Notes: generated by a model not told the origin, from the letters alone. A DNA stretch of 44,219 nt from a candidate division FCPU426 bacterium (GCA_003152075.1 PLZG01000019.1:68957-113175); one strand, 5' to 3'. Shown: positions 9,956-44,219, numbered from the stretch's first letter. Numbers and translations: made by a program.

Positions 9956-9985
9956 TTGCCCACGACGGGAACCCGGATTGGACAA
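9956..9985 (+). repeat. 30-bp palindromic repeat, copy 1
   Basis: TTGCCCA-N16-TGGACAA, a slightly degenerate copy (GCC for GTC on the left, GGGAACCC in the centre). It lies 43 nt before the ATG of the exported protein at 10029. See the finding on the repeat family. Confidence 0.85.
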
Positions 9986-10028: not shown

Positions 10029-10592
10029 ATGAAGAAGTTCGTTTTTTCGGTATTTTTTTGTATGTCCATCCCAAATCTTTTCGCTGACGGAATTTCCACT
10101 CCAACCCCGATTTCGTTTCAAAAACCGGAAACAGTCAAACAACAGGTGGCCGATGATTTCATCCTATATGCAGAGATTGAACAGGAAGTCCGGGACGGGA
10201 AACTCATAAAAAAACACAAAACGGAGGAATCTGACCGGTTCCCGTTGGAGTGGACTTTATACCTGGATCACTCGGAAAAGGTCAGGGAATACATTGAGGA
10301 AGGCGGATCGGAGGATAATGCCGAGACTGTAAAATATTATTACGACGAATCAGGCCGTTTAAGGGTTGTCGCCAACGATTACGGGGACGTCTATGGAACC
10401 GATGACGAGCAAATAATTCTTTTGGACTTGAGGGGACAAATCCTCCAGGTGAATGTTGAGGAGAACTTCGTAAACAAGGAAATGGGTCGGAACGAACATC
10501 AAAAGAAAGTCCTGAAAGAACCCGTGGATTTTAATAGTACAAAAGTTGAGTTCGTCCATGACCCGCTTAAAAGATTCAAGAAACAAAAGTAA
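10029..10592 (+). CDS. Exported protein of unknown function
   Basis: 187 residues. A signal peptide (about 1-19, ending NLFA) is followed by a hydrophilic beta-rich protein. Features are 'YYYDESGRLRVVANDYGDVY', which resembles single YD-type beta strands, and a Lys-rich C-terminus. No known domain is recognised with certainty. AAAGGA at 10017-10022 supports the ATG. A copy of the 30-bp palindromic repeat lies just upstream. The next gene follows after 54 nt and may be cotranscribed. Confidence 0.75.
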   Translation: MKKFVFSVFFCMSIPNLFADGISTPTPISFQKPETVKQQVADDFILYAEIEQEVRDGKLIKKHKTEESDRFPLEWTLYLDHSEKVREYIEEGGSEDNAETVKYYYDESGRLRVVANDYGDVYGTDDEQIILLDLRGQILQVNVEENFVNKEMGRNEHQKKVLKEPVDFNSTKVEFVHDPLKRFKKQK

Positions 10593-20488: not shown

Positions 20489-23400
20489 ATGTTTTTAATG
20501 TTATTTGTTGGCTTGAACCTTTTTTTATTTGGATGGGACCATATTAAATTCCTGAAAACGCGCTTATTCATTTCCTGTCTTTTTATCCTGGGAACACCCT
20601 TGTTTCTTTTTGGCTTCGGGCCATCCGGGCACGCCAAAACAGGGGGGATTCAACAACCTTTGTCCGCAGAGCAACAAATCCAACTCAACTCAAGCTACGG
20701 CAAATTACCGCTGGCCTTCGAGCCCAACCAGGGCCAAGCTGATCCTTCGGTAAAATTCCTGGCCCGGGGAAGCGGCTATACCCTCTTTGTAACGTCCCAA
20801 GAAGCAGTTCTTTCTCTGAAGAAACCTCATGACCCATCGCGTCCCATACCTGGCAGAGGGCCGCGCTCCAAAATTTCCCCGGCCCCCACTCCTAACATCG
20901 GCCACCCTACAATTCTTCGGTTGAAGCTGGAAGGGGCCCAGGCCAACCCGTCTTCCGAGGGTTTAGAACAACTACCCGGTATAAGCAATTATTTTATCGG
21001 GAATGATCCTACTAAGTGGCACACGAACATCCCTCAGTTTTCAAAAGTGGCTGTGCGCGGCCTTTACCCGGGCGTGGATATGGTTTATTACGGCAACCAG
21101 GGAAAACTGGAATATGACTTCGTCGTCCAGCCGGGCGCGGACCCGGCTTCCATCCATATGAAAGTCGAGGGTGCCCAAAGCGTGCGGGTGAACAGCCAGG
21201 GCGATATGGAACTGACGACAGCCCAGGGAAAATTAGTTTTCAAGGCGCCGACGGTATATCAGGAAGTTAAGGGACAGAAAAATTCCCTGGAAGGGAATTA
21301 CAAGATCGAGGAAGGGAACCGGGTGGGTTTCGAGGTGATGGATTACGACCGCTCAAAACCCCTGGTGATTGACCCAGTGTTGGATTATTCGACCTATCTT
21401 GGAGGAACCCAGCAGGATGACGGCGCCGGAATAGTCGCGGACGTGAGCGGTAACGCCTATGTGACCGGTTTTGGGGGTTCGGCCTTCCCGACGACGGCCG
21501 GGGCATACCAAACCATTTATGGAGGCGTATGGATCGATGCCTTTGTGTCCAAGCTAAGTCCGGATGGATCGACCCTTCTTTATTCCACCTATTTGGGGGG
21601 AAGCGACAATGACCGGGGAACGGCCATCGCCCTGGATTCGAGCGGGGATGCTTTTGTGACCGGATTGACCGCTTCCACGAATTTCCCCACCACCGCGGGC
21701 GCTTATCAAACCACCAACAGCGGAGGTAACGACGCCTTCGTGGCCGAACTCAATCCGAGCGGATCATCGCTGCTTTATTCAACTTATTTGGGCGGCACTG
21801 GCGATGATGGTGGTGGCGGAATCGCCGTGGACGCAAGCGGCGGGGTTTATGTAACGGGGTATGCCAACGCCGGTTTTCCCACTACCGCGGGAGCCTACCT
21901 AAGGATTTACCCGGGATCTTACTCCGTTTTCGCGGCTAAATTGAAACCCATCGGTTCCGGAAACGGGGACTTGATTTACTCGACCTATTTGGGGGTGTCC
22001 TATTACCAGTATGGCGGTATTGGCATCGGGGTAGACGCCAGCGGCAACGCTCTTATCGGGGGAACCTGTAACGCGGGTTATCCCACCACCGCGGGCGCCT
22101 ATCAATCGTCCTTTGGGACAAATACTTCCGGCCCTTTTGTGACCAAGCTGAACGCCGCCGGATCGGCTTTACTTTATTCCACCTACGTGGGGTACTTTTT
22201 TTGTCTTGGCTTTGCGATGGACGGGAACGGAAATGCTTACCTAACCGGATATACCGGAACGGGTTTTCCCACGACGCCGGGGGCTCTCCAAACGGTCACT
22301 AGCGGTTTCAACGTGGCTTATGTGGCCAAGGTCCACCCCGCGGGGGGCGGAAACGCGGACTTAGTTTATTCGACTTATATGGAAGCGGCCGGTTTTTCGG
22401 TGGGTAATGCCATCGCGGTGGACTCTAGCGGGAACGCCTTTGTGACCGGAATGGCGGGCACGGGTTTCCCCGTGACACCCGGGGCTTTCCAATCGGCCCC
22501 TTGTGGCGGTGCTTATGACTCCTTTATCTCCGAGTTGAACCCGAGCGGATCGGCCCTCCTCTATTCGACTTATTTTTGTGGGACCGTTGATACGGTCAGT
22601 AGCGGTATCGCGCTGGACCCCAATGGCGGGATCTATGTGACGGGATACACTGATTCGGGTTTTCCCATAACCGCGGGAGTTGTTCAAACGGTTTATGCCG
22701 GTACTCTCGACGCTTTTGTGGCTAAATTTTTATTTTCCAACACCAGGACACCTACCATGACGCCCACGGTTACTTCGAGCTATACGCCAGCTAACACCGC
22801 TACCCCAACTCAGACCCGTACCCCCTCCAACACGGCCACCAACAGTCCAACCGCCACACTCACCAATTCCGCGACCAATTCTCCAACCTCCACTCCCACG
22901 AAAACCCCAACCCAAACACCCGCCAATACCGGAACCCCGTCCCCAACCAATACGGCTACCGACACTCCAACCCAAACTCCTACCAGCACTTCGACCAATA
23001 CCGCGACTCAGACCCCCACCAGCTCCCCTTCCTCTTCGGCCACCAACAGTCCAACTTTCACGCCCAGCAGTACGCCCACCGATTCGCCAACGGTCACTCC
23101 CACTTCTACGCCCACGAACAGCCCCACTATTACCAATACACCGACCATCACCTTTACTCCAACTCAAACCTACACCCCCACCGACACCAACAGCGCCACC
23201 AATTCACCCACGAACACTCCGACGAAGACCCCAACCAACACCCCCACTTGGACCTACACTTTTACGGTTACAAACACACCCACCAATACCTTTACCCCGA
23301 CCAACACTTTCACGTCCACCTGGACCCCAACCCCCACTTACACCTTCACCATTACCTGGACGCCGACAAAAACCTACACGCCCACCATTACTTTCACCCC

Positions 23401-23719
23401 GACCAACACACCCACCTTTCCACTCGATTGCGACACCTTTTATGTCTCAAAAAACTTTTTCAACCCCAACCAAGGGCCTGTTTCGATTTACGTGGAATAT
23501 TGCAGCGATTTAGGGGGTGATTTTGCCATGAACGTTTACAACACGGCTGGGGAGCATATCCGCACCCTGGATTCACGCCGTCTGACCGGACCCTTCTATG
23601 CCTCTTACTTATGGGACGGAATCAACAAGTATGGTGACCCCTGCGCCAGTGGGGTTTACCTATTGCAAGAGGTGAATCCCTTTAAACAGAAAATCAAAAG
23701 GGTTCTTTTAATAAGGTAA
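20489..23719 (+). CDS. Giant secreted SBBP beta-propeller protein
   Basis: 1076 residues. Hydrophobic leader with the signal segment (to about 50); a conserved N-terminal domain often paired with SBBP repeats (about 65-290, 'LAFEPNQGQADPSVKFLARG'); eight or so SBBP beta-propeller repeats (about 295-745) built on 'LLYSTYLGG', 'GNAYVTG' and 'FPTTAGAYQ'; a Thr/Pro/Asn/Ser linker (about 750-977); and a FlgD-like Ig C-terminal domain (979-1076, 'FAMNVYNTAGEHIRTLD'). Such C-terminal domains can act as sorting or anchoring modules. Probable cell-surface or secreted adhesin or carbohydrate-binding protein. The gene is flanked by a pair of related palindromic elements. The linker is encoded by degenerate ACN-CCN repeats. 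Confidence 0.9.
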   Translation: MFLMLFVGLNLFLFGWDHIKFLKTRLFISCLFILGTPLFLFGFGPSGHAKTGGIQQPLSAEQQIQLNSSYGKLPLAFEPNQGQADPSVKFLARGSGYTLFVTSQEAVLSLKKPHDPSRPIPGRGPRSKISPAPTPNIGHPTILRLKLEGAQANPSSEGLEQLPGISNYFIGNDPTKWHTNIPQFSKVAVRGLYPGVDMVYYGNQGKLEYDFVVQPGADPASIHMKVEGAQSVRVNSQGDMELTTAQGKLVFKAPTVYQEVKGQKNSLEGNYKIEEGNRVGFEVMDYDRSKPLVIDPVLDYSTYLGGTQQDDGAGIVADVSGNAYVTGFGGSAFPTTAGAYQTIYGGVWIDAFVSKLSPDGSTLLYSTYLGGSDNDRGTAIALDSSGDAFVTGLTASTNFPTTAGAYQTTNSGGNDAFVAELNPSGSSLLYSTYLGGTGDDGGGGIAVDASGGVYVTGYANAGFPTTAGAYLRIYPGSYSVFAAKLKPIGSGNGDLIYSTYLGVSYYQYGGIGIGVDASGNALIGGTCNAGYPTTAGAYQSSFGTNTSGPFVTKLNAAGSALLYSTYVGYFFCLGFAMDGNGNAYLTGYTGTGFPTTPGALQTVTSGFNVAYVAKVHPAGGGNADLVYSTYMEAAGFSVGNAIAVDSSGNAFVTGMAGTGFPVTPGAFQSAPCGGAYDSFISELNPSGSALLYSTYFCGTVDTVSSGIALDPNGGIYVTGYTDSGFPITAGVVQTVYAGTLDAFVAKFLFSNTRTPTMTPTVTSSYTPANTATPTQTRTPSNTATNSPTATLTNSATNSPTSTPTKTPTQTPANTGTPSPTNTATDTPTQTPTSTSTNTATQTPTSSPSSSATNSPTFTPSSTPTDSPTVTPTSTPTNSPTITNTPTITFTPTQTYTPTDTNSATNSPTNTPTKTPTNTPTWTYTFTVTNTPTNTFTPTNTFTSTWTPTPTYTFTITWTPTKTYTPTITFTPTNTPTFPLDCDTFYVSKNFFNPNQGPVSIYVEYCSDLGGDFAMNVYNTAGEHIRTLDSRRLTGPFYASYLWDGINKYGDPCASGVYLLQEVNPFKQKIKRVLLIR

Positions 23720-24610: not shown

Positions 24611-24862
24611 ATGGGAAAGTTTTTGCTCTTGGCGATGATGGTATTTTTTGTGGCCGCCCCGGCTCTATGGGCATTACCCACTTCCCGAAAGCACACCCGC
24701 CCGCCTTACACCGGACCCCGAAAGACGGTGGAGAACCCGAATCCGTCTCCCCGCCCTTCCTTCAAGAGTAGCGGCAAGCCCTCGTCCCGCCCAAAAGGCC
24801 TGTTCGAACACATCATCGTCCGATATAAATTTGGTAATGGTTGTCCACGACGGGGACCCTAA
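24611..24862 (+). CDS. Small exported Pro-rich protein
   Basis: 83 residues: signal peptide (about 1-21, 'AAPALWA' end) and a basic, Pro/Ser-rich mature part. GGGGG at 24602-24606 supports the ATG. The last codons and the stop come from the 30-bp palindromic repeat (copy 2), reading CPRRGP-stop, so the original C-terminus may have been replaced when the repeat arrived. Function unknown. Confidence 0.5.
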   Translation: MGKFLLLAMMVFFVAAPALWALPTSRKHTRPPYTGPRKTVENPNPSPRPSFKSSGKPSSRPKGLFEHIIVRYKFGNGCPRRGP

Positions 24863-24870
24863 TTGGACAA
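24841..24870 (+). repeat. 30-bp palindromic repeat, copy 2
   Basis: TTGTCCA-N16-TGGACAA with centre CGACGGGGACCC. It overlaps the end of the small exported protein gene and lies 26 nt before the ATG at 24897. Confidence 0.9.
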
Positions 24871-24896: not shown

Positions 24897-25268
24897 ATGA
24901 AAGCGATTTACAAAGGGAAATTCGAGTGGGGGAATTCTGCTCTGGGTAAATCTGAGTGTGAACTTCGGGTTTATAAAAAAAAGATTTCGGAACAGACTGT
25001 TGTCGTTATTACCAAGGCTGTTAAATTTAGTGGATGGAATAGTGCTACTGGTTTTATTGCACTGGCTAACGCGGTCAGGGAAAAGATTGAATCTCTTGCC
25101 GAGAATACGATGTGGATTGAGTATTTCCCGCAAAGCGGCGGATATTCGGAGTCCTTTGATTTGGTAAGACTCAACTGGGAAGGAAACAGCTTTCATTCGC
25201 CGCAAAGAAGGCGAATTCTCCGAAGTCTAGCCGAAGAATTGGCTGGCAGTCTTATTAAGATGGCCTGA
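24897..25268 (+). CDS. Hypothetical protein (123 aa)
   Basis: A soluble protein of mixed alpha/beta composition with no signal peptide, starting 'MKAIYKGKFEWGNSALGKSE' and ending in a helix ('LRSLAEELAGSLIKMA'). AAGGA 7 nt before the ATG supports the start. No known family is recognised. It carries a copy of the 30-bp repeat just upstream, as do the cassette-like genes at 35-38 kb. Confidence 0.65.
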   Translation: MKAIYKGKFEWGNSALGKSECELRVYKKKISEQTVVVITKAVKFSGWNSATGFIALANAVREKIESLAENTMWIEYFPQSGGYSESFDLVRLNWEGNSFHSPQRRRILRSLAEELAGSLIKMA

Positions 25269-34051: not shown

Positions 34052-34651
34052 TTGTTGAATACGGCAATGACGAAAACAAAATCAAACGTTAAAACGATAA
34101 AAATCATCGCGATTGGCGGATGCGGGTGCAATCTGGCAAACCACTTGCACTCGGTGTTGGATAAAAATCTTCAGCTTCTAGTTGTGACTTTCGACTCTCA
34201 GTCGTTGAGTCGCTCCAAGGTCCAAAGCAAAATACTCTTAACCTGCGAAGGCAAAGGGAGCGGCGGCGATCCGAATGTAGCGCGTCAGACGGCTGAGCAA
34301 TCCGAAGAATTAAAAAATTCGGTCAAAGATGTTGATGTAGTAATTTTGGTTTGTGGGCTTGGTGGCGGCACCGGAAGCGGAGTAATGCCTCATGTTGCCG
34401 AGGTCGCAAAAGAGGCGGGTGCTACCGTGTATGGAATAGTCATAACACCATTTGATACCGACGGTCCAGTCAAAAAGAAAAATGCGCAGGAAGCGTTAAC
34501 AAAGTTGAGAAAGTACACCGTCGGGCTTAAAGTTATTGAAAATGAATCGATTCATAAAAATGTCCCTGAATCAGTTGGTCTGCTTGGCACATTTAAAAAG
34601 ATCGATGAAATAGTTCAGGCAGAAGTCGAGCGGATTGTTGAGAGGGTTTGA
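34052..34651 (+). CDS. Orphan FtsZ-like GTPase domain
   Basis: 199 residues, versus about 350-400 for FtsZ. It has a T1-like loop 'IGGCGCNLANH', the T3 region 'GSGGDPNVARQTAEQ', the tubulin signature GGGTGSG at about 104-110, and 'GIVITPFDTDGPVKKKNAQE'. It ends just after the start of the long central helix ('FKKIDEIVQAEVERIVERV'), before the T7 loop that completes the GTPase site of the next subunit in a filament, and lacks the C-terminal domain and tail. It could bind GTP and cap or poison filaments, or be a remnant. AGAGGA is at 34045-34050; TTG 34055 or ATG 34067 are other starts. Confidence 0.82.
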   Translation: MLNTAMTKTKSNVKTIKIIAIGGCGCNLANHLHSVLDKNLQLLVVTFDSQSLSRSKVQSKILLTCEGKGSGGDPNVARQTAEQSEELKNSVKDVDVVILVCGLGGGTGSGVMPHVAEVAKEAGATVYGIVITPFDTDGPVKKKNAQEALTKLRKYTVGLKVIENESIHKNVPESVGLLGTFKKIDEIVQAEVERIVERV

Positions 34652-34874
34652 GCTTGGAGAGTTATTTGAAGCAATTCTACATGTGATCCAGCCGTTATAG
34701 TCATTGCGGCTTAAAAACTCCCTTAATCCCGTACTAAAAAGCGTGCCAGCGAAGAGTTTGTAAAGGCAGGCGGTGAGGGGATAGGCCGAAGAGATCTGGC
34801 GGTTATTACACCAGCAACGGTGAAATTGTTACCGTGCCCTAAATTCATTTTAAATTCACGTTTGTTAATTGAAT
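34652..34874. other. Gap before the repeat-linked genes
   Basis: No start-bearing gene. A plus-strand frame is open from about 34727 through the repeat to about 34936 ('RASEEFVKAGGEGIGRRDLA') but has no start codon; it may be a remnant of a lost gene. Confidence 0.35.
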
Positions 34875-34904
34875 CTGTCCACGACGGGGACCCAGAAGGA
34901 ACAA
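34875..34904 (+). repeat. 30-bp palindromic repeat, copy 3
   Basis: CTGTCCA-N16-GGAACAA, with a damaged right arm. 27 nt before the ATG at 34932. Confidence 0.85.
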
Positions 34905-34931
34905 AGGGAAAAACTGACAAAGGAAAACGGG

Positions 34932-35972
34932 ATGTTTAAAATAACTTTTTATTGTTTTGCTTTCATCTGTTTAACGGTACCAACTCTTTGGGCTAATAGT
35001 CAACCGGTTGATTCTCAACCCGAAGGGTCCAGTCAGATAGTCCCATTGCCCACGGAAACCTGGTGGCAACCCTGTCGGGACTGCTCCAATAATCCGGTTT
35101 CGTCTTCCTGCGCAAATAACGGAAAAGAAACGTATAAACCGGAAGTCCTGTTCGAATTTCCCTTGAGTCAATTCCATAAATCTTATATCGCTGCCATGTG
35201 CGCGGATAAGGATGGAACCATTTACCTTCTCTTGAACGGCCTGAAGCCGAAGGTCCAAATTCGAAAACCCAGCGGGGTATTGATCAGAGAATTTCCCTGG
35301 GTCAGGGACAAATTCGACGCGGTTGAGCGTGCCTATGAAATCAGGGTCGATGAAAAAGGAAATATTTTGGTGATAGGGATGACCGTACAGGGAATGGGCC
35401 GTATCTACGATCCAAAAGGCAATTTGCAGAATAGTTTTAAATACAAAGGCGATGTTGCCAACGCCTTTGAGCGAGCGAGGCTTTACAAGTCCTGGTTCAG
35501 CCATGGCATCGTTTATACGATGAAGGATGGGCTTGTCGTATTTCGACCGAAACCCCCTGAGGATTCCGGGGCCGATGATTCTGGAAATACCCTGAAGGGG
35601 TTTCAGTTCAAACGCAACGAACATCCCAAGGACGGGGTCCAACAAGTCACTTCACAGGACGGAAAGGTGTTTTCCTTTCCGGATAAACTGAATCACGGAG
35701 ATTTTTGGGGAATGACTTTTGTGGATGACGCCGGAAACCTTTACGGTTATTACGAGGCTTCTTTTGATTACGGGACTTACGTGGATGGATACGGCAGGGA
35801 CCGTCTTGAAAGTGAATTTCACGATCGTGTGTATAAATTTGACCGAAACATGAACTTGTTAACGGGTTTTCAATTTGTGCCGGCTTATATCGAGCCGTCC
35901 ACCGAAGTGGTTTATTGCTTTGTGGAGGATTTTGAGAAAAAGGTCGCGCGCATCATCCGCTGGGCCAAATAG
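34932..35972 (+). CDS. Exported protein, possible beta-propeller
   Basis: 346 residues from the ATG at 34932 (AAAGGA upstream); an in-frame ATG at 34869 would translate the repeat and is rejected. A signal peptide (about 1-20, 'PTLWA') is followed by a Cys-containing segment ('WWQPCRDCSNNPVSSSCAN') and beta-rich repeats with NHL/6-bladed features ('YIAAMCADKDGTIYLLLNG', 'IRVDEKGNILVIG', 'MTFVDDAGNLYGYY'). Function unknown. Copies of the 30-bp repeat flank the gene on both sides. Confidence 0.75.
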   Translation: MFKITFYCFAFICLTVPTLWANSQPVDSQPEGSSQIVPLPTETWWQPCRDCSNNPVSSSCANNGKETYKPEVLFEFPLSQFHKSYIAAMCADKDGTIYLLLNGLKPKVQIRKPSGVLIREFPWVRDKFDAVERAYEIRVDEKGNILVIGMTVQGMGRIYDPKGNLQNSFKYKGDVANAFERARLYKSWFSHGIVYTMKDGLVVFRPKPPEDSGADDSGNTLKGFQFKRNEHPKDGVQQVTSQDGKVFSFPDKLNHGDFWGMTFVDDAGNLYGYYEASFDYGTYVDGYGRDRLESEFHDRVYKFDRNMNLLTGFQFVPAYIEPSTEVVYCFVEDFEKKVARIIRWAK

Positions 35973-36001
35973 GTATTTAAGATATTATTGAAAGGTTATT
36001 A

Positions 36002-36031
36002 TTGTCCACGACGGGGACCCGTCGTGGACAA
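36002..36031 (+). repeat. 30-bp palindromic repeat, copy 4 (perfect palindrome)
   Basis: TTGTCCACGACGGG (36002-36015) and CCCGTCGTGGACAA (36018-36031) are exact inverted repeats around GA. It lies 29 nt after one gene and 41 nt before the next start. Confidence 0.95.
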
Positions 36032-36072
36032 GGAAAAAATGCTATAGAGCTGTCGAATAGAGAGGAAACAAA

Positions 36073-36639
36073 ATGGATCGCGAAATAACCGTATCTCTTA
36101 CGCCTCGGCTTCTTAGGTGGACTTTGTTTTACCAGTTCCGCCAAATAATTTTCATCTTTGGCATCATATTCTTCATTTTAATCATCTACATTTTTAATTT
36201 TATTTCTCGTGGCGGCGTACTGATCCCGGAAACTTGTATATCCTATTCGCCTATCTTAATCGGCCCTCTTTTAATCGGCTTCCTCCTTTTTTCTTCATAT
36301 TCCAAAAACTTAGCTCAAATCCAAAAAATGAAATCGCCTTCTATCAAATATCGAATGACGGACGAATGGCTTTATGTTCAATCCGAATTGGGTTCGGGCC
36401 AAAACGCATGGGCGGCCTATAAGGAAATTCGAAAGAACGCTAAGCTTTGGCGCGTGGTTGCTCAATCGGGTGTTTCCTATATCATTCCCGTTGAGCTTTT
36501 GGATGAAGAACTGAAGACTTTTTTGTCGGCCAAACTTCCCAAATCTCCCCGAGATTCGAACCGTCTATTTAAGACTTTGGCTTTTTGGCTCCTTGCGTCC
36601 GTTGTTGTTATGTACTTTTTGAGACAAAGTCATCATTAA
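36073..36639 (+). CDS. YcxB-like membrane protein
   Basis: 188 residues. Two N-terminal transmembrane helices (about 22-47, 58-76), a soluble part with 'YRMTDEWLYVQSELGSGQNA' and 'WAAYKEIRKNAKLWRVVAQS' like the YcxB C-terminal domain, and a last helix (about 168-184). AGAGGA 7 nt before the ATG is clear. Biological role unknown. Flanked by repeat copies 4 and 5. Confidence 0.7.
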   Translation: MDREITVSLTPRLLRWTLFYQFRQIIFIFGIIFFILIIYIFNFISRGGVLIPETCISYSPILIGPLLIGFLLFSSYSKNLAQIQKMKSPSIKYRMTDEWLYVQSELGSGQNAWAAYKEIRKNAKLWRVVAQSGVSYIIPVELLDEELKTFLSAKLPKSPRDSNRLFKTLAFWLLASVVVMYFLRQSHH

Positions 36640-36642
36640 ACT

Positions 36643-36672
36643 TTGTCCACGATGGGGACCCGGAGTGGACAG
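36643..36672 (+). repeat. 30-bp palindromic repeat, copy 5
   Basis: TTGTCCA-N16-TGGACAG, starting 3 nt after the stop of the YcxB-like gene and 19 nt before the GTG start of the HAD gene. Confidence 0.9.
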
Positions 36673-36691
36673 AGTATAAAAAGGATATGCC

Positions 36692-37369
36692 GTGATATTT
36701 TTTGACCTCGACGATACTCTTTTGGACCACAGCGCTGCGGCAGAGGCCGGGGCCACAAAGGTTTATGAAACATACCGATCTTCTTTTAAGGAAGACTTGG
36801 AAGCATTTCTTTTGCGATGGGAAACCGTTTCGGAAAAATATTTCCAGTCAAATTCACCTTACTTGCGGTTGACCACGGAAGAACGCCGCCGGGGCAGGGT
36901 GAGGGAAATTTTTTCCAATCCTCTTTCCGACAAAGAGGCGGATACCCGTTTTCAGGTGTACCTGGATACCTATGAATCTAGCTGGAAACTTTTTCCCGAC
37001 TCCATTCCCTGCTTGCGGTCCCTGAAAGGACGGCCTTTGGGGCTAATCACCAACGGCGAAAAGGAACAACACCGGTCCAAAATCCAAAAGACAGACTTGG
37101 GTGCCTATTTCTCGACCGTAATTATCAGCTGGGAGGTGGGTTGCTCCAAACCCGAACGGGCCATCTTTGAGTTGGCCGCGAAACAAGCGGGAGTTCCATT
37201 GACAGATTGTGTTTACATAGGAGATCGATTAGAAACGGATGCCAGGGGCAGTCAAAAAGCAGGGATGAAGGGCATTTGGTTGAACCGAAAAGCCAGGCGG
37301 GAACAGACAGACTTGGGAATTTCCGTTATTGGGAGTTTGATGGAATTGCCTGGGTTGATCCCATTTTGA
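36692..37369 (+). CDS. HAD-superfamily hydrolase
   Basis: 225 residues. Motif I 'FFDLDDTLLDH' (Asp5 and Asp7), motif II 'GLITNG', motif III Lys in 'GCSKPERAIF' and motif IV 'YIGDRLETDA' are complete, with a helical cap domain between motifs I and II. This is the HAD-IA group of small-molecule phosphatases such as 5'-nucleotidase YjjG or haloacid dehalogenase-like enzymes. The start is GTG at 36692 with AAGGA 7 nt away. Flanked by repeat copies 5 and 6. Confidence 0.92.
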   Translation: MIFFDLDDTLLDHSAAAEAGATKVYETYRSSFKEDLEAFLLRWETVSEKYFQSNSPYLRLTTEERRRGRVREIFSNPLSDKEADTRFQVYLDTYESSWKLFPDSIPCLRSLKGRPLGLITNGEKEQHRSKIQKTDLGAYFSTVIISWEVGCSKPERAIFELAAKQAGVPLTDCVYIGDRLETDARGSQKAGMKGIWLNRKARREQTDLGISVIGSLMELPGLIPF

Positions 37370-37378
37370 AATTTTCGG

Positions 37379-37408
37379 TTGTCCACGACGGGGACCCGCA
37401 TTGGACAA
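37379..37408 (+). repeat. 30-bp palindromic repeat, copy 6
   Basis: TTGTCCA-N16-TGGACAA, 9 nt after the HAD stop and 55 nt before the next start. Confidence 0.92.
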
Positions 37409-37463
37409 AAGAAAATGGATACTGGGGGCCTAACATCAATTTTTCGACAGGGAGGCATATATT

Positions 37464-38345
37464 TTGAATAGCTGGAAAAGGCTCATTATCGTTTCTGCCC
37501 TAACCTTGTTAGCCGGTTGTTTGGCTTGGTTAGGCGTACGAAAAATGGCTGATCGTTCTATTATTTACGTCTTTACTGACCCAAAGGTCGTTGATTGGTC
37601 ACGTTTTGGCCTGAAGGATGTTGGTCACAAGCGACAACATGCTGGTACTCTTTTCGGTCTTTTCCCTTCCTTGCTTTGTCCTGCGGCCGATCATTACATC
37701 CATGACGAGAAAAATATGGGTGAGCTTAGGGTGGTGGTCCTCAGCGGAGTCCGCGTTTTTCCCGAGATGGGGGCCCAAAAGGCTCAAGTCATGAGGATGC
37801 TGGTGAGTTGGTTAAAGAATGACGATGGCTTCGACGTTTTTGCTGCCCAAGACCTGGGCGCCTATGGGAAGGCCGCAACCCCCGCATTGATCGAGGCTTG
37901 GAATAGGAAAGGAAGCTTGGGGTTCACCTGTCAGGTCGCCGATTCCATGGTCCGTGTCGGTGATCCAAGCTTCATTCCGGTACTTCAGGAGAGTTTTGAA
38001 AAGGACAAAAGTTTTAACCCTGTTCTTTCAAAAGAGGATAAGGAAGAATCCGGGAAAGCCCTTTACGCTTGTATAGCCCTTTATGAGATCACCCGAGAGG
38101 ATCGATACAAAATTTACCTGGAAAAGGTTTTGCACCGGGGTGCTAAATCCAGCAAGCTCCTGACCATCATGTCCATGGGCAGCACCGAAGTTTTTCCGCT
38201 TGGGTTCTCCGCCAAAGAAACCATGATCCATTTTCTCCAAATGGCCCTGAAAGATAGGGATCCCCTGGTGCGGAAGTTCGCAAAAGAACACCTTGAAATG
38301 ATTGAGAAGGATCTTAAGAAACAAGCAGCAAAAGCTGGGACCTGA
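37464..38345 (+). CDS. Anchored HEAT-like helical protein
   Basis: 293 residues. One N-terminal hydrophobic segment ('LIIVSALTLLAGC', which could be a lipobox: LLAGC) and then a helical protein with HEAT-like repeats ('GKAATPALIEAWNRKGSLGF', 'DPSFIPVLQESFEKD', 'ALKDRDPLVRKFAKEHLEM'). Such scaffolds bind other proteins. The start is TTG at 37464, chosen because AGGGAGG lies 8 nt before it. Repeat copy 7 begins at the last base of its stop codon. Confidence 0.75.
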   Translation: MNSWKRLIIVSALTLLAGCLAWLGVRKMADRSIIYVFTDPKVVDWSRFGLKDVGHKRQHAGTLFGLFPSLLCPAADHYIHDEKNMGELRVVVLSGVRVFPEMGAQKAQVMRMLVSWLKNDDGFDVFAAQDLGAYGKAATPALIEAWNRKGSLGFTCQVADSMVRVGDPSFIPVLQESFEKDKSFNPVLSKEDKEESGKALYACIALYEITREDRYKIYLEKVLHRGAKSSKLLTIMSMGSTEVFPLGFSAKETMIHFLQMALKDRDPLVRKFAKEHLEMIEKDLKKQAAKAGT

Positions 38346-38374
38346 TGTCCACGACGGGGACCCTGATTGGACAA
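38345..38374 (+). repeat. 30-bp palindromic repeat, copy 7
   Basis: ATGTCCA-N16-TGGACAA; its first base is the last base of the previous stop codon. Confidence 0.9.
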
Positions 38375-38411
38375 AGAAAAGTGCTGAATTGGTTGTAAGG
38401 AAAGATCCGAA

Positions 38412-38480
38412 ATGCCCTTTTCAAGACCTAACCCCAATGTTATTTACCTTTTTGGAGGGGTAAGGGAGGGGAGGTGGTAA
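38412..38480 (+). CDS. 22-codon ORF after repeat copy 7
   Basis: ATG at 38412 has AAGGA 9 nt upstream and is 37 nt from the repeat, as in the other repeat-linked genes. It encodes MPFSRPNPNVIYLFGGVREG plus RW. It may be a tiny gene, a leader, or the remnant of a lost gene. Confidence 0.25.
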   Translation: MPFSRPNPNVIYLFGGVREGRW

Positions 38481-38584
38481 AATAAATGAAATTAAAGTCT
38501 GACTTGACCGTCTATATAGTGAAGTTTACCGCTTGGGATATTGGTTAAACCTATGTTTGAAGAGTTTCTAAAGGATCTTCTATC

Positions 38585-41500
38585 GTGAAGCCTTATTTAA
38601 AACGGGGAATTCTTAACGCTGGCGGATATTCCGGCCCTCCGAAGCCGGTCCTATCCACGCTGATGGCTGTTTTATTTTTATCCCTCCCTCTTTATTCCCA
38701 TGCCCAAGCCATTCCTCCCGTCCCCCGGGGAAACCCCGGCGATCTTTGGGCGGACAAGATCCTGGGCCAGGCGGATAACGGCATCCCCAATTACGCTTTC
38801 GGCCAGGGGAGCCTCGCGGGAGGCGAACCGGTAGCCTCCAAGATCGCGGGGTCCAGCGGCGCGGTTTGTGACACCCTCCACAACATCCTCTATTGCTGGG
38901 ACGTGGCCAACAACCGGATTATGGGGGTCAATCTCGCTACTTTACCCCCGGGACAAGGAGTCGGAACAGGGGCCCAGATCGTCCTGGGTCAACCGGACTT
39001 CAATCACACGGGTGATAACGGGGATACGAACTGGCAAAACTTTCCAACCTGGCCCGCGCCCACCGCTTCCACCTTGGGCAGCTTATGGTTCTTCCAACAT
39101 TCGATTGAGGGTGGATCCACCGCGAGCATGGCGGTTGACCCTCAAGGGAACCTTTATGTTCCCGATTATTTCAACAACCGGGTCCTTCGGTATGATTGGC
39201 CCATCACGAGCGGGCAAACCGCTTCCCACGTTTGGGGACAACCGGATTTTGGTTCCTATTGGTACAATCAAACCCCGCCCAGCAACAATAGTTTCAACGG
39301 CCCCTTTTACGCGGGCAACCTGTTTCCCCCGACCGCCTCGACCATCGGGTTTTTTCAAGGAGCCGCGGGCGGGGCCGGGGTGGCCATCGATCCCTGGGGA
39401 AATTTATGGGTTGCTGATTGCACCAACTATAGGGTAGTGCGATTTCCCGCCGACCCCGCCAATAACAATATCCCCCAAAAGAACGCCGATGTGGTTCTAG
39501 GACAAATCGATTTCACCTCCAATGACGGGCATGGTTTGGGTCCCCAGTCCGCGATCAACGCGCCCAACTCGGTGCGGGTGGACGCCCAAGGGAACGTTTA
39601 CGTGGGTGTCGGTCCCATCCTTGTTTTCCGGCCGACTCCCAATCCGTCGCCCGGCGGCCAACCCACTTACGCGAACGGACAACCCTATGTTTTGGCCTAC
39701 AACCAATATGTGGGTAATGCCATCGGCCTGGAATGGGACGCTCCGGTCGCCGCTGGTGGCACGGGCGACCTTTGGGCGACGGATTTTTCGAACAATCAAC
39801 TGGTTCTTCTTCATTTTGATTATTCGTCGGCCCCCAACCAAACCGATCCTCCCGTCGTGACGCCGATCAAGGTTTTGGGCCACGACCTCCCCAGTAATGG
39901 GACCGTAGGCAATGGATGTGCCGGGGGTACGGGAACGGCGGGGAACCCTGGGGTCGTGGTGGGAGACCACAATACGATCTTCACCGACGGCAGCGGCCTT
40001 GACAGCACCCATACCTGGCTGGTCTGCAATCCCACGGGAGGGGTGGGTGTGGACGCGTCGGGGAATGTCTATGCCTGTCCCAATGAGGGAGTAGCCGACC
40101 TTTGGCGTTATCCGGCTCCCATACCCAACCCGGTGGCGGGAATAGCCCATGACGCGAACGTCATGGTTTATAATCCAGCCCAATTCGGTTCGGGCAATTA
40201 TTCCGGCGATGTCGGTTTCGCGTCCCCCGGAGGCGTGGCAGTGGCCACGGCGGGGGGAGTTACCCAGATCATCGTGGGGGACCATCTTCGACTTCATTAT
40301 TGGGACATGCCCGCGGGGGGCCCCTCAGGCCTGACCAACGGCAATCCCGAGACCGGATACGCCGGCGCCAGTCAGCCCTATCTCTACGTCGGAAATACCT
40401 ATGGCCGCATCAAGAGTGACCGGATGGGCCATTTGTTCGCCGTTCATGGGGGGAATACGATCGAGGCATTCAACCTGCCTCTCACCAGCGGCGCGTCCGC
40501 CATCCTGACCCTTCCTACGGCCTTGCCCCTCCTGGGAGGGGGGAACGTGAGCTTCAATTTCCGCGTGGATGGCATCGCGGTCGATCCGACGGGGACTTAC
40601 CTTTGGGCGACTGATACGATCAACAGTCGGATCTTCCGTATCCGCAATCCCCTCACCAGTCCCATGGTGGATATCATCCTGGGCCAGCCGAACGCTACGG
40701 CCACGGGCTGCGATGGCAACGGAACCTACACGCCCTACGGCGGGCCCAACGGATGTGGCTGCACCGGGGGAACGGTGACGCGTTATGTCATGAACGTGCC
40801 AGGGGCGGTGGTGTTGGACCACAATGGGGACCTTTTTGTCTCGGATTATTCCCTGGAAACCCAAGGCAATGGCCGGATGCTGCGTTGGGACGCGAGTACC
40901 CTGGCGGCCGCGGCGGCCCAGGCCAATACTACTGGTGTTGTCCAATTTGGGAACCCCGGGATACCCCCCGATGGCCTTTTCGGAAGGACTTCGTTCAACG
41001 CCTTGAGCGGCAATATCCCCTCCAGCGGGGAAGCGATGAATGCGCCTTTCGAACCCGCTTTCAACTCGGATGACAGCCGGATGGTGGTGGGCATGAACGG
41101 CCAAGGGGGCTTCCGGTTCCCGGTTATTTTTCAGAATCCCAGGATCGGCGATACTCCCATCGGTAAATTACAGGACTACGGACCCCTCTCCGGTTCAGAA
41201 ACCTTCGACGACGCGGATAACCTCTACGTGGTGGAGTCGAACCGGAACCGGGTGATGATCTATTACAAACCCTTCGACATCACCCCCACCCCCACGCCCT
41301 CCATCACTCCCACCGTGATTCCTTGTTCCCAGACCAGTTACTTATCGGTGGCCCAGCCCTATGGAATCGCCCTGGATAACTTGGGCAATAGTTATGTGGC
41401 GGATGATTCCACCAACCTGCTGGATGTCTTCAACTCCTCGGGGGCCCCGCAGACGCCGATCGGAACCGGGATCCTGCTCCAACCCATGGGCGTTGCCGTG

Positions 41501-43171
41501 AACGGGACCAACCTGATTTACGTCACCGATATGCAGCAAAACCAGGTGTTTATTTTCAATCAACAGGGCCAGACCGTCGGAAACTTGGGATCGATGTATG
41601 GCGTTACCGGCGGCAGCTACGTAGGGCAATTCCTGGCCCCCGCCGGGATCGCGGTGAACAGCGCAGCCACGACAGTGGTGGTGGTGGATCAGGTGAACCA
41701 GCGGGTGGAGGTATTCAGCCAAGCCGTCGGCCCAATCCTCCAAAATGTATCCGGGACCACGACCATCTCCCTATTGAACGGGACATTTGTGGAGCCCGTG
41801 GGAGTGGCTTTGGACTCCATTGGAAACATCTATGTGGCCGATTTTGGCACGAATTTGCTCCAGGTGTTTTATCCCAATGGGAATTTGAAGACCTCCTGGG
41901 ACGTGACCCAAGGAACCTCCCTTCAAGCCGCCGAGTTCGTGGCCGTGGGCCCCAACAACCTGGTTTACGTGTCCGATGACGAGGGAGCGGTGGGGATTTT
42001 TGACGCTCAAGGGAATATCCAGGGGGTTTTACCGGGCGGGACCTTACCCTTTAACGGCGCCGAGGGAATCGCTTTTGGGAACGGAGCGATGTATATAGCG
42101 GATCTAGGGAACTCCAGGGTTGACCAATTCCCCCTTTGTCCCCTCGGCAGCCCGATCATGACGGTGACGCCAACCTTTACTCCCGTGTGTGTTAATGGCG
42201 ATACCAATGTTGAGGGCACTCATCTTCCGACCGGATACCTTTCCGCCGTCTCTGTCACACTGACTTCTCCCGGGACCATCTCCGCTATTAATTTATATAT
42301 GCTTACCTCGGGAACCACCCATGCCAACGTCGCCCTCTATGATTCGGATTCCAGCGGCCATATCACGACGATGTTGGCGGAGTCGGGAAGCCAATTCGTC
42401 TTGAACGGATGGAACGCTTTGACCATCCCGACCCAAAGCGTATCGGCGAAGGTTTATTGGCTGGCCTTTCAGTATGACAATGGTTATTCGGCCTATGGCA
42501 GTGGAAGTATCGGTCAGTATGTCCAAATAGCCCAAGGTTATGGCGGTTGGCCCAACATGACGGGTACGGGACCCAACAACCTCATTAATGATTCCATTTA
42601 TGTTTCGATTTGCTCTTCGGGGCCGACTCCGACCAATACTCCCACTAATACGTCAACGGCTACGCCGTCGAGTACTCCTACGGGCACTCCGACTCTTTCG
42701 GCCATCAACACTCCTTCGAATACCCCAACCTCCACGCCCACCCTGACACCGTCATCCAGCCCCACGAATACTCTCACCCCCACGCCAACCCCGACCATTA
42801 CGATGACCCAAACGCAGACACCCACCCAAACGGCCAGCCCGACCCCCACTATTTCACCGACTCCCACGAACAGTCCCACCCCAGTGCCGGTCACTTCCAT
42901 TTGCCCGCCTTACCCGAACCCGGCCAAAGGAGACCAGATTTCCTGCAGAATCACGGTTTCAGGCCCTTCGGTGGTTAAATGGAAAGTTTTTACCGTCGCC
43001 CTCCGTAAGATATTTGAGGACAACCTGCAAGTAACATCAACCGATACCCTGATTTGGAACTTGAAAGACCGATGGGGAACTCCCGTGGCCAATGGGCTTT
43101 ACTTTCTCAAGGTGGATATTGAAGGTTCCCAGCCCATGACCAAGATTTTAAAAGTGATTGTGATCCATTAA
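38585..43171 (+). CDS. Giant secreted NHL-repeat protein
   Basis: 1528 residues. Signal peptide (about 20-41, 'SHAQA'); a very long run of NHL-type propeller blades ('[20 protein letters not shown]', '[20 protein letters not shown]', '[14 protein letters not shown]') from about 50 to 885; a Thr/Pro linker at about 899-910; a second propeller (about 915-1190, '[18 protein letters not shown]'); a jelly-roll-like domain (about 1201-1344, '[20 protein letters not shown]'); a Thr/Pro-rich linker (about 1347-1435); and a FlgD-like C-terminal domain (1437-1528, '[18 protein letters not shown]'). GTG start with AAGGA 8 nt upstream. Probable surface or secreted protein built like the SBBP protein at 20489. 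Confidence 0.9.
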
Positions 43172-43244
43172 TAAAATTCCGGATCATATCGTTCCTAGAC
43201 CTTCTAAAAGTTAAGGTTGGAAGGAATAAGGTTTCCGGTCCTAG

Positions 43245-43274
43245 CTGTCCACGAAGGGGACCCGGATTGGACAA
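43245..43274 (+). repeat. 30-bp palindromic repeat, copy 8
   Basis: CTGTCCA-N16-TGGACAA, with AGGGG in the centre. 46 nt before the ATG at 43321. Confidence 0.88.
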
Positions 43275-43320
43275 AGAAAAATTCCAAAAAATCATTTGAA
43301 ATACTTGAGGTGTTAAAATT

Positions 43321-43592
43321 ATGAGAATGGTTTACTTAAATTCACTGACAAGCTTTTTCTAATTCGTGGTAACTTTTGCTGTCTTTTCTTTTTTCGCGTT
43401 TCATCATTGTTAAACGCCTTGGTTTGTTTTCCTCCTTTCTGCCGGATTTGTGGGATTATTATTTTTTTCATTTTAAGTTATCTTTTTAACCCCATTTGGA
43501 CTTTAAATGAAACGGGAATTCAGAGGCGGTGGGAACCTATAAAATTACCGTTTTCTTTCCTCTTTCACCCTTGGATAATCATAGGATTTTAA
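43321..43592 (+). pseudogene. Probable membrane protein gene with early frameshift
   Basis: TGAGG lies 10 nt before an ATG at 43321, which reads 13 codons and stops. The next frame is open from 43317 to 43592 and reads 'ENGLLKFTDKLFLIRGNF', hydrophobic segments ('CGIIIFFILSYLF') and 'NPIWTLNETGIQRRWEPIKL'. Adding one G (ATGGAG for ATGAG) would restore one continuous protein of about 90 residues. Either a single-base loss or a sequencing error. No family is recognised, though the size and helices fit small membrane proteins. Confidence 0.45.
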
Positions 43593-44101
43593 GAGATGGC
43601 CTGCATGTCGAATTTCACGGCAGTCGGATGGAATCAAAACTTTCCTTAAACGGTTAAGGAAAGTTTCAAGGTAACAGCTGTTTAGTTGATAAACCTAAAA
43701 TAAAACAATGAATAAAACACCCATCAATGGCTCTAACCTTTGGATGATCTTTCCATAACATCTTATAGGTTTTCTCGTGGCCATATTTGTTGCACTTACT
43801 TATTGAAATCGTGGAAATTAAAAGTGCTTACAGTCAAACTTGTAAAACTAAAATCGATTTCAATCTCTTTTTATTTTTTTTAGTCTGATTTGAATCAACC
43901 AAAAAACTAAAACCTAATTCAGCCAGCCAGGATACTCTTCTTTATCTAATCTTTACCTGTTCAACACCCATTTTTTGGGGGATGTGAGATAAAGTTATCC
44001 AAACCAACCAGACACATTTATATACCCTTGGAAGATTTGAAGAGTTGGACAAAATTGATGAGGATGCCGGAAACCGATTGAAGTCGGTTGAGAGAGAAAT
44101 A
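43593..44101. other. AT-rich non-coding region
   Basis: No gene is supported. It contains a perfect hairpin at 43637-43666. The last 110 bases run into an open frame that may belong to the gene at the window edge. Confidence 0.45.
43637..43666. terminator. Perfect 13-bp hairpin, possible terminator
   Basis: AAACTTTCCTTAA (43637-43649) pairs exactly with TTAAGGAAAGTTT (43654-43666) around ACGG. Only a short T run follows on either strand, so termination would be weak. It lies 45 nt after the small membrane gene. Confidence 0.5.
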
Positions 44102-44219
44102 ATGTACGACGAAAAGAAGATAAAAACTGTTTCCGTTGAAGGCGAAGTTTTTTCTATTTCCTTACCTGTGGCTTCTTTTTTTTCTTTTATCCCCGATAAC
44201 TTACTTCAAGGCCGAATTT
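44102..44219 (+). CDS. Partial gene at right edge
   Basis: ATG at 44102 with GAGAGAA upstream opens a frame to the window end: 'MYDEKKIKTVSVEGEVFSIS' and 'LPVASFFSFIPDNLLQGRI'. The same frame is open back to 43988 ('HLYTLGRFEELDKIDEDAGN'), so a start further upstream (TTG 44045) is possible. No family can be named from this fragment. Confidence 0.4.
   Translation, partial: MYDEKKIKTVSVEGEVFSISLPVASFFSFIPDNLLQGRI

Follow-up and report, generated by a model that had tools for sequence, protein, structure and literature searches.

The 30-bp repeat described here is, with a probability that we put at about 80%, the site at which mobile gene cassettes are exchanged in a system resembling integrons. 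It was found in a stretch of 44,219 nucleotides from a candidate division FCPU426 bacterium (the window). We observed that discrete units bounded by this repeat have been shuffled and passed between genera, and that the right arm of the site is inherited together with the downstream gene. About 100-150 genes of one genome are organized in arrays of swappable one-gene units, and we regard a second kind of gene-cassette array as the best description of the system. The source genome (G000) comprises 4.10 Mb in 114 contigs and is 99.97% complete, and the detailed work was done on stretches that were taken from several genomes and total about 1.7 Mb. Like the source genome, all genomes used here are metagenome-assembled, and short repeats can mislead assemblers.

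A first-pass annotation had recorded eight copies of the repeat in the window, and all eight were recovered at their positions on the plus strand. Two of them are isolated (9956..9985, TTGCCCACGACGGGAACCCGGATTGGACAA, and 24841..24870). As had been noted, both precede a gene (43 nt before the gene at 10029 and 26 nt before the gene at 24897, respectively), but neither has a co-directed called gene upstream. The other six copies form an array of genes that all read in plus direction. The first site (34875..34904), which carries a right-arm variant (AGAAGGAACAA), opens cassette 1 (34875..36001) with an exported protein lacking a Pfam match (34932-35972). The second site (36002..36031) is a near-perfect palindrome (TTGTCCACGACGGG-GA-CCCGTCGTGGACAA) and belongs to cassette 2 (36002..36642), which encodes a membrane protein with a sub-threshold YcxB match (36073-36639). 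Sites 3 (36643..36672) and 4 (37379..37408) introduce a HAD hydrolase (36692-37369; cassette 3, 36643..37378) and a HEAT-like protein (37464-38345; cassette 4, 37379..38344). Site 5 (38345..38374) is followed by a 22-codon ORF at 38412 and by a 1528-aa NHL/beta-propeller protein (38585-43171), which together constitute cassette 5 (38345..43244). Site 6 (43245..43274) precedes a small gene that starts at 43321 and is cut by the contig end, so that cassette 6 (43245..44219) is incomplete. Since the right end of the window is the end of contig C37, the array, which runs on to position 44219, is truncated on this side. Start codons follow the array sites at the distance noted before (19-55 nt), for the copy at 38345 that of the 22-codon ORF. 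The observation that copies begin close behind the previous stop codon holds for those at 36002, 36643, 37379 and 38345 (29, 3, 9 and -1 nt, the first base of site 5 being the last base of the stop codon) but not for that at 43245 (73 nt).

A degenerate group II intron 5' end (34741..34793), recognized by eye from its likeness to the intron starts that directly follow other sites, lies on the same strand some 80 nt upstream of the first array copy; this remnant was not reported by an Rfam search of the window at gathering threshold. A 199-aa protein consisting of a tubulin/FtsZ GTPase domain only (34052-34651; PF00091, E 3.6e-31) ends 223 bases before the array. Long Thr/Pro-rich low-complexity repeats, which are common in the genome, were seen in large exported proteins of the window (22759-23415 and 42613-42823). 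Taken by themselves, the copies in the window are only suggestive, and the palindrome excess is weak: a loose 14-base palindrome gave 8 matches compared with a shuffle mean of 2.4, and 8 matches were reached in 1 of 100 shuffles.

From an alignment of 90 sites, we obtained the consensus TTGTCCACGAC-GGGGACCC-NNNNTGGACAA, in which the left arm (TTGTCCACGAC) is conserved, the right arm (NNNNTGGACAA) loose and the centre between them (GGGGACCC) asymmetric. The inverted repeat is formed by the outer 7 bp of the site, the looseness of the right arm residing in its inner part. Positions 11-15 are nearly invariant and positions 16-18 variable, and outside the site there is little conservation except for an A-rich stretch from +2 to +5. 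The nearly perfect copy at 36002 has a strong single-strand fold, and the other copies fold weakly or not at all. When 175 distinct sites were analysed for covariation between paired arm positions, no pair went beyond shuffles. Thus, we read the site as a two-arm double-strand site and not as a conserved RNA.

A search of the whole 4.1-Mb genome with the 18-base half TGTCCACGACGGGGACCC yielded 174 matches with at most 3 mismatches, 98 of them forward and 76 reverse, whereas the reversed-pattern control gave 3+3 = 6 under the same conditions. The true number of sites is below 174 because some reverse matches are palindromic copies counted on both strands. A weight matrix recovered about 120 sites in the contigs examined, whereas the reversed sequence gave 0. 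The sites occur in clusters on about 20 contigs, have one orientation within each array and never fall inside called genes. Random orientation, copies within coding regions and a lack of any excess, which the first-pass annotation had named as arguments against its own proposal, were looked for genome-wide, and none of them was found. Sites are present throughout the nine genomes examined of one FCPU426 order; G001, which belongs to the same genus as the source genome, has at most a few (no more than 2 weak ones among the loci scored). When the exact site was searched in one genome per species (84,980 species), all high-scoring sites came from FCPU426 or from a bin matching G003; the four remaining matches lacked a proper right arm. 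In viral contigs, the exact site was not found.

The packing of the units is that of a gene cassette. For 76 site-to-site units, a median period of 1010 bp (1.0 kb) was determined, and the longest ORF runs in site direction in 70 of them, usually with one gene per unit. This ORF starts at a median of 57 nt after the site, and its stop codon lies at a median of 23.5 nt before the next site. The first-pass annotation had tied the repeat only to the gene that follows it. In arrays, the preceding stop codon is adjoined equally: the upstream gene is co-directed with the site in 94 of 105 cases (11 opposite) and the downstream gene in 79 of 93.

The cargo is integron-like and consists of functionally unrelated genes. 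PIN toxins were the commonest family (15 among 144 cassette proteins scanned in two sets), and their partners RHH, CopG, BrnT/BrnA, Phd and VapB were also found. GNAT acetyltransferases, HAD and alpha/beta hydrolases and TPR proteins came next, and there were unknowns as well. In an Rfam search, group II introns (RF02003) were found to begin directly behind four sites; the same intron start stands at a contig end behind two further sites, and one more case was seen in G002. Group IIC introns land behind hairpins, including those of attC sites and terminators (PMC7923331). The introns thus support hairpin formation by some copies but not recombination as such.

The mobility of the units can be seen from their distribution. 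Among 123 units of seven genomes, we found 19 homologous pairs at different places, including different genera. In near-full-length pairs, the homology starts 1-30 nt behind the left site and stops 0-12 nt short of the right site; the remaining pairs are partial matches or merged units. A few units are displaced by about 10 nt relative to the site. The testable 800-bp flanks of paired units had no homology except for one 29-nt stretch. For instance, C4:15029-16039 corresponds to C47:30189-31199 (92%), G002:C25:1166 to C49:81538 (94%) and C2:111-790 to both C84:5279-5958 (90%) and G002:C77:4172-4841 (86%). One unit (unit A) occurs twice in the source genome and once in another genus, with different neighbours each time. 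The HAD cassette of the window (36643..37378) is homologous to C17:7859-8592 (65% over 618 nt), the neighbours being unrelated on both sides. When pairs of sites with one-sided homology were collected (n = 54), 30 had common downstream and 24 common upstream sequence, and in 0 pairs were both sides homologous. In C11/C17 and in C43/C53 of G002, the downstream sequence is common and the upstream sequence differs, with the junction at the site.

In the clearest cases, units of G000 and G002 are 80-87% identical, whereas the chromosomes share only 64-72% at the syntenic xer locus. This difference indicates that units were transferred between the two genomes. Moreover, sites are overrepresented near contig ends in the source assembly: of 118 sites, 23 are no more than 500 bp away from an end, compared with about 3 expected. 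Such an excess would follow from variation of the arrays within the population or from repetition of units. Neither an excised circle nor a pair of empty and filled sites was seen in the assemblies, in which the sole same-genus comparison is that with G001, a genome with at most a few sites.

To locate the point of exchange, we compared the two arms of the site in pairs with one-sided homology. Pairs with common downstream sequence mismatched at positions 19-29 with a frequency of 0.19 compared with 0.32 in random pairs (P=0.001), but at positions 0-10 they were no more alike than random pairs. In pairs with common upstream sequence, the mismatch at positions 19-29 (0.33) was at the random level. 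For pairs of at least 95% identity, the effect was sharper, with a mismatch of 0.08 versus 0.55 at positions 19-22, although this set includes intron pairs that may be independent insertions. In the cleanest pair (C43/C53 of G002), the two sites match throughout from position 11 onward, and the differences fall at positions 0 and 10. Positions 16-18 were not linked to the downstream gene. Taken together, these data indicate that the right arm, unlike the left, moves together with the downstream gene, which places the exchange in or near GGGGACCC, roughly from position 10 to position 19. In older homologous units (80-93%), the right arm of the left site is often strongly different, and thus the arms may mutate or convert quickly or the exchange point may vary. 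The first-pass annotation had offered gene-cassette recombination sites as one of three readings, and this one is now strongly supported, since whole units recur with different neighbours and since the downstream gene and the right half of the site are inherited together.

We infer that the units are excised and integrated by a site-specific recombinase by way of a circular intermediate. Cassettes would be small, usually single-gene units, and neighbouring cassettes would have one 30-bp site in common. Two directly repeated sites would recombine with exchange in the centre to give a circle with one site, and this circle could enter at any other site. The asymmetric centre would fix the orientation, so that all genes of an array would be read one way behind short leaders with a ribosome site. 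At somewhat better than even odds, we favour a cassette platform that arose independently of integrons in one order of FCPU426, uses central exchange between direct repeats and an Xer-type or serine enzyme of the host acting in trans on arrays scattered over the chromosome, and trades its one-gene units between genera.

The best present candidate for the enzyme is the single 358-aa Xer-type tyrosine recombinase of the order, with a serine recombinase as the alternative candidate. That the Xer-type recombinase (G000:C90:33157-34230, which is L150:8157-9230) also moves cassettes, the 30-bp site being of the 11+8+11 Xer type like cer, is possible rather than probable. An ortholog was found in each of the nine genomes of the order (9 of 9) but in none of the 35 others of the phylum, and it is the sole Phage_integrase match in G001 and G007. 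Being, alone among the recombinases tested, present in all nine genomes and the sole tyrosine recombinase seen in two of them, it is the parsimonious candidate, and the exchange in the site centre fits an Xer enzyme. On the other hand, the gene is set among housekeeping genes and not in arrays, and its co-occurrence with the site in one lineage counts as a single evolutionary event. G001 has the gene yet at most a few sites. Furthermore, in most family genomes xer is flanked by a conserved element of its own (CGATTTTGCATTTRAANGG..), a candidate dif that is unlike the cassette site; copies of it on both sides of the gene point outward (CGATTTTGCATTTRAANGG...GTTTTTTTCRACGAT). A palindrome (ACTTCTATAATTACAGTTATAGAAGT) at the 5' end of xer has arms that change together between species.

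Several known systems resemble this arrangement. Like the cassette site, cer is 30 bp long and consists of two 11-bp arms around 8 bp of centre (11+8+11, PMC5357621), and the cer/loxP class as a whole (30-34 bp, two arms of 11-13 bp, asymmetric 8-bp centre) shares the layout of the cassette site, but cer and loxP resolve replicon dimers and are single sites that do not bound cassettes. XerS/difSL and XerH/difH likewise combine one Xer (XerS has 356 aa, the enzyme of the order 358 aa) with a conserved element beside its gene, but the element beside the xer gene of the order is not the cassette site. The pdif modules of Acinetobacter plasmids (XerCD; PMC13141974) are also small, include toxin-antitoxin genes and have short two-arm sites with central exchange. 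However, dif modules must alternate in C and D orientation, whereas all sites of one array here point the same way; the arrays are chromosomal with ten or more modules, their arms are unlike dif, and Xer is only a candidate enzyme.

That a serine recombinase is or was the enzyme, with exchange at the central GA (positions 14-15) in the symmetry centre of the site, appears rather unlikely, although the invariant positions 11-15 beside the variable positions 16-18 would fit it. Relics of the 3'-end of large serine recombinases adjoin the right arm of sites in two genera, in G000 (C2, C4, C50) and in G002 (C25, C32, C49), a further relic lies near a site in C41, and C84 and C87 encode resolvases of 229-263 aa. 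The relics at L031:4336-4774, L032:10692-10780, L039:1-20 and L100:11197-11280, like those of G002, are antisense to the array. Against this proposal, the copies adjoining sites are fragments, and PF00239 had no match in the assemblies of G001-G004 or G007, including the site-rich G002 (98% complete). Moreover, large serine integrases are not known to recombine two identical sites without a helper.

Other recombinases were considered as well. All-against-all comparison of ORFs near arrays revealed no recombinase that recurs there, and the genome-wide recombinase searches list none on contig C37; the first-pass annotation had noted neither an integrase nor a REP transposase in the window. The serine recombinases of G000 comprise two short resolvases and relics only. 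The tyrosine recombinase trio of C16 (L107:118-3385) looks RIT-like and stands beside duplicated flagellar hook-type genes, the pair on C97 lies within an Rhs/helicase region, and a family of about 370 aa looks like the integrase of an integrative element with a putative excisionase gene. Members of this family were seen at the ends of repeated elements that coincide with contig ends (L108, L099, L091, L109 and L110; C102, C41, C31, C67 and C78 of G000), the C102 copy being accompanied by genes resembling excisionase, SpoVG and a GGDEF protein. IS110-type DEDD/Tnp20 recombinases (PF02371) are absent in G000 and, among the site-bearing genomes, occur only in G002.

Three further readings were also weighed. 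The first-pass annotation had considered a REP/MITE family, and a hairpin of this kind inserting between genes would share with the present repeat the palindromic, intergenic position near gene ends and the more than 100 copies, perfect copies of which fold well as single strands. We consider it very improbable since a Y1 transposase/RAYT (PF01797) was detected neither in G000 nor in G006 or G008, and since the copies never lie in called genes, are clustered instead of dispersed, have one orientation in arrays and bound units that move with both boundaries at copies.

An ordinary integron or CALIN with drifted attC sites is likewise very improbable. The resemblance is considerable: tandem single-gene cassettes in one orientation with a common palindromic site, shuffling between arrays and between genera, toxin-antitoxin, acetyltransferase and unknown cargo, and group II introns behind the sites. 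However, the 30-bp site lacks the R-box consensus. Pairs of attC R-boxes (RYYYAAC / GTTRRRY) were found near 0 of 201 sites, compared with 0.75% of control stretches, and no integron integrase (TIGR02249) scored above the family cut-off in 11 genomes, weak matches skipping profile positions about 190-235. Exchange takes place in the site centre and not in an outer box, and the arms lack covariation. Moreover, attC is cut at R' and goes with the upstream gene, whereas here it is the downstream gene that the right half of the site accompanies. Because three defining features of integrons failed (IntI, attC boxes, site with the upstream gene), we did not class the system as an integron. Finally, a regulatory element of a dispersed regulon (operator, 5'-UTR RNA or 3' terminator), also raised by the first-pass annotation, is hardly credible: sites do lie between stop and start codons on the strand of the genes, and group IIC introns also target terminator hairpins, but such an element leaves the shuffled units and the hybrid sites unexplained, the arms lack covariation, Rfam gave no match to sites in the searched loci, and the cargo is functionally unrelated.

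Integrons, which are defined by IntI and attC, count as the principal means by which single-gene cassettes are stockpiled. The open-licence literature that we searched does not describe the present system, which given that scope is weak evidence. The cassettes described here provide a large collection of so far unstudied mobile genes from an uncultured phylum, and with them a defined 30-bp site and two concrete enzyme candidates. If our reading is true, integron finders built on attC and IntI would miss such systems. A comparable cassette economy would then exist with another site and without IntI, and the integron lifestyle would have arisen more than once.
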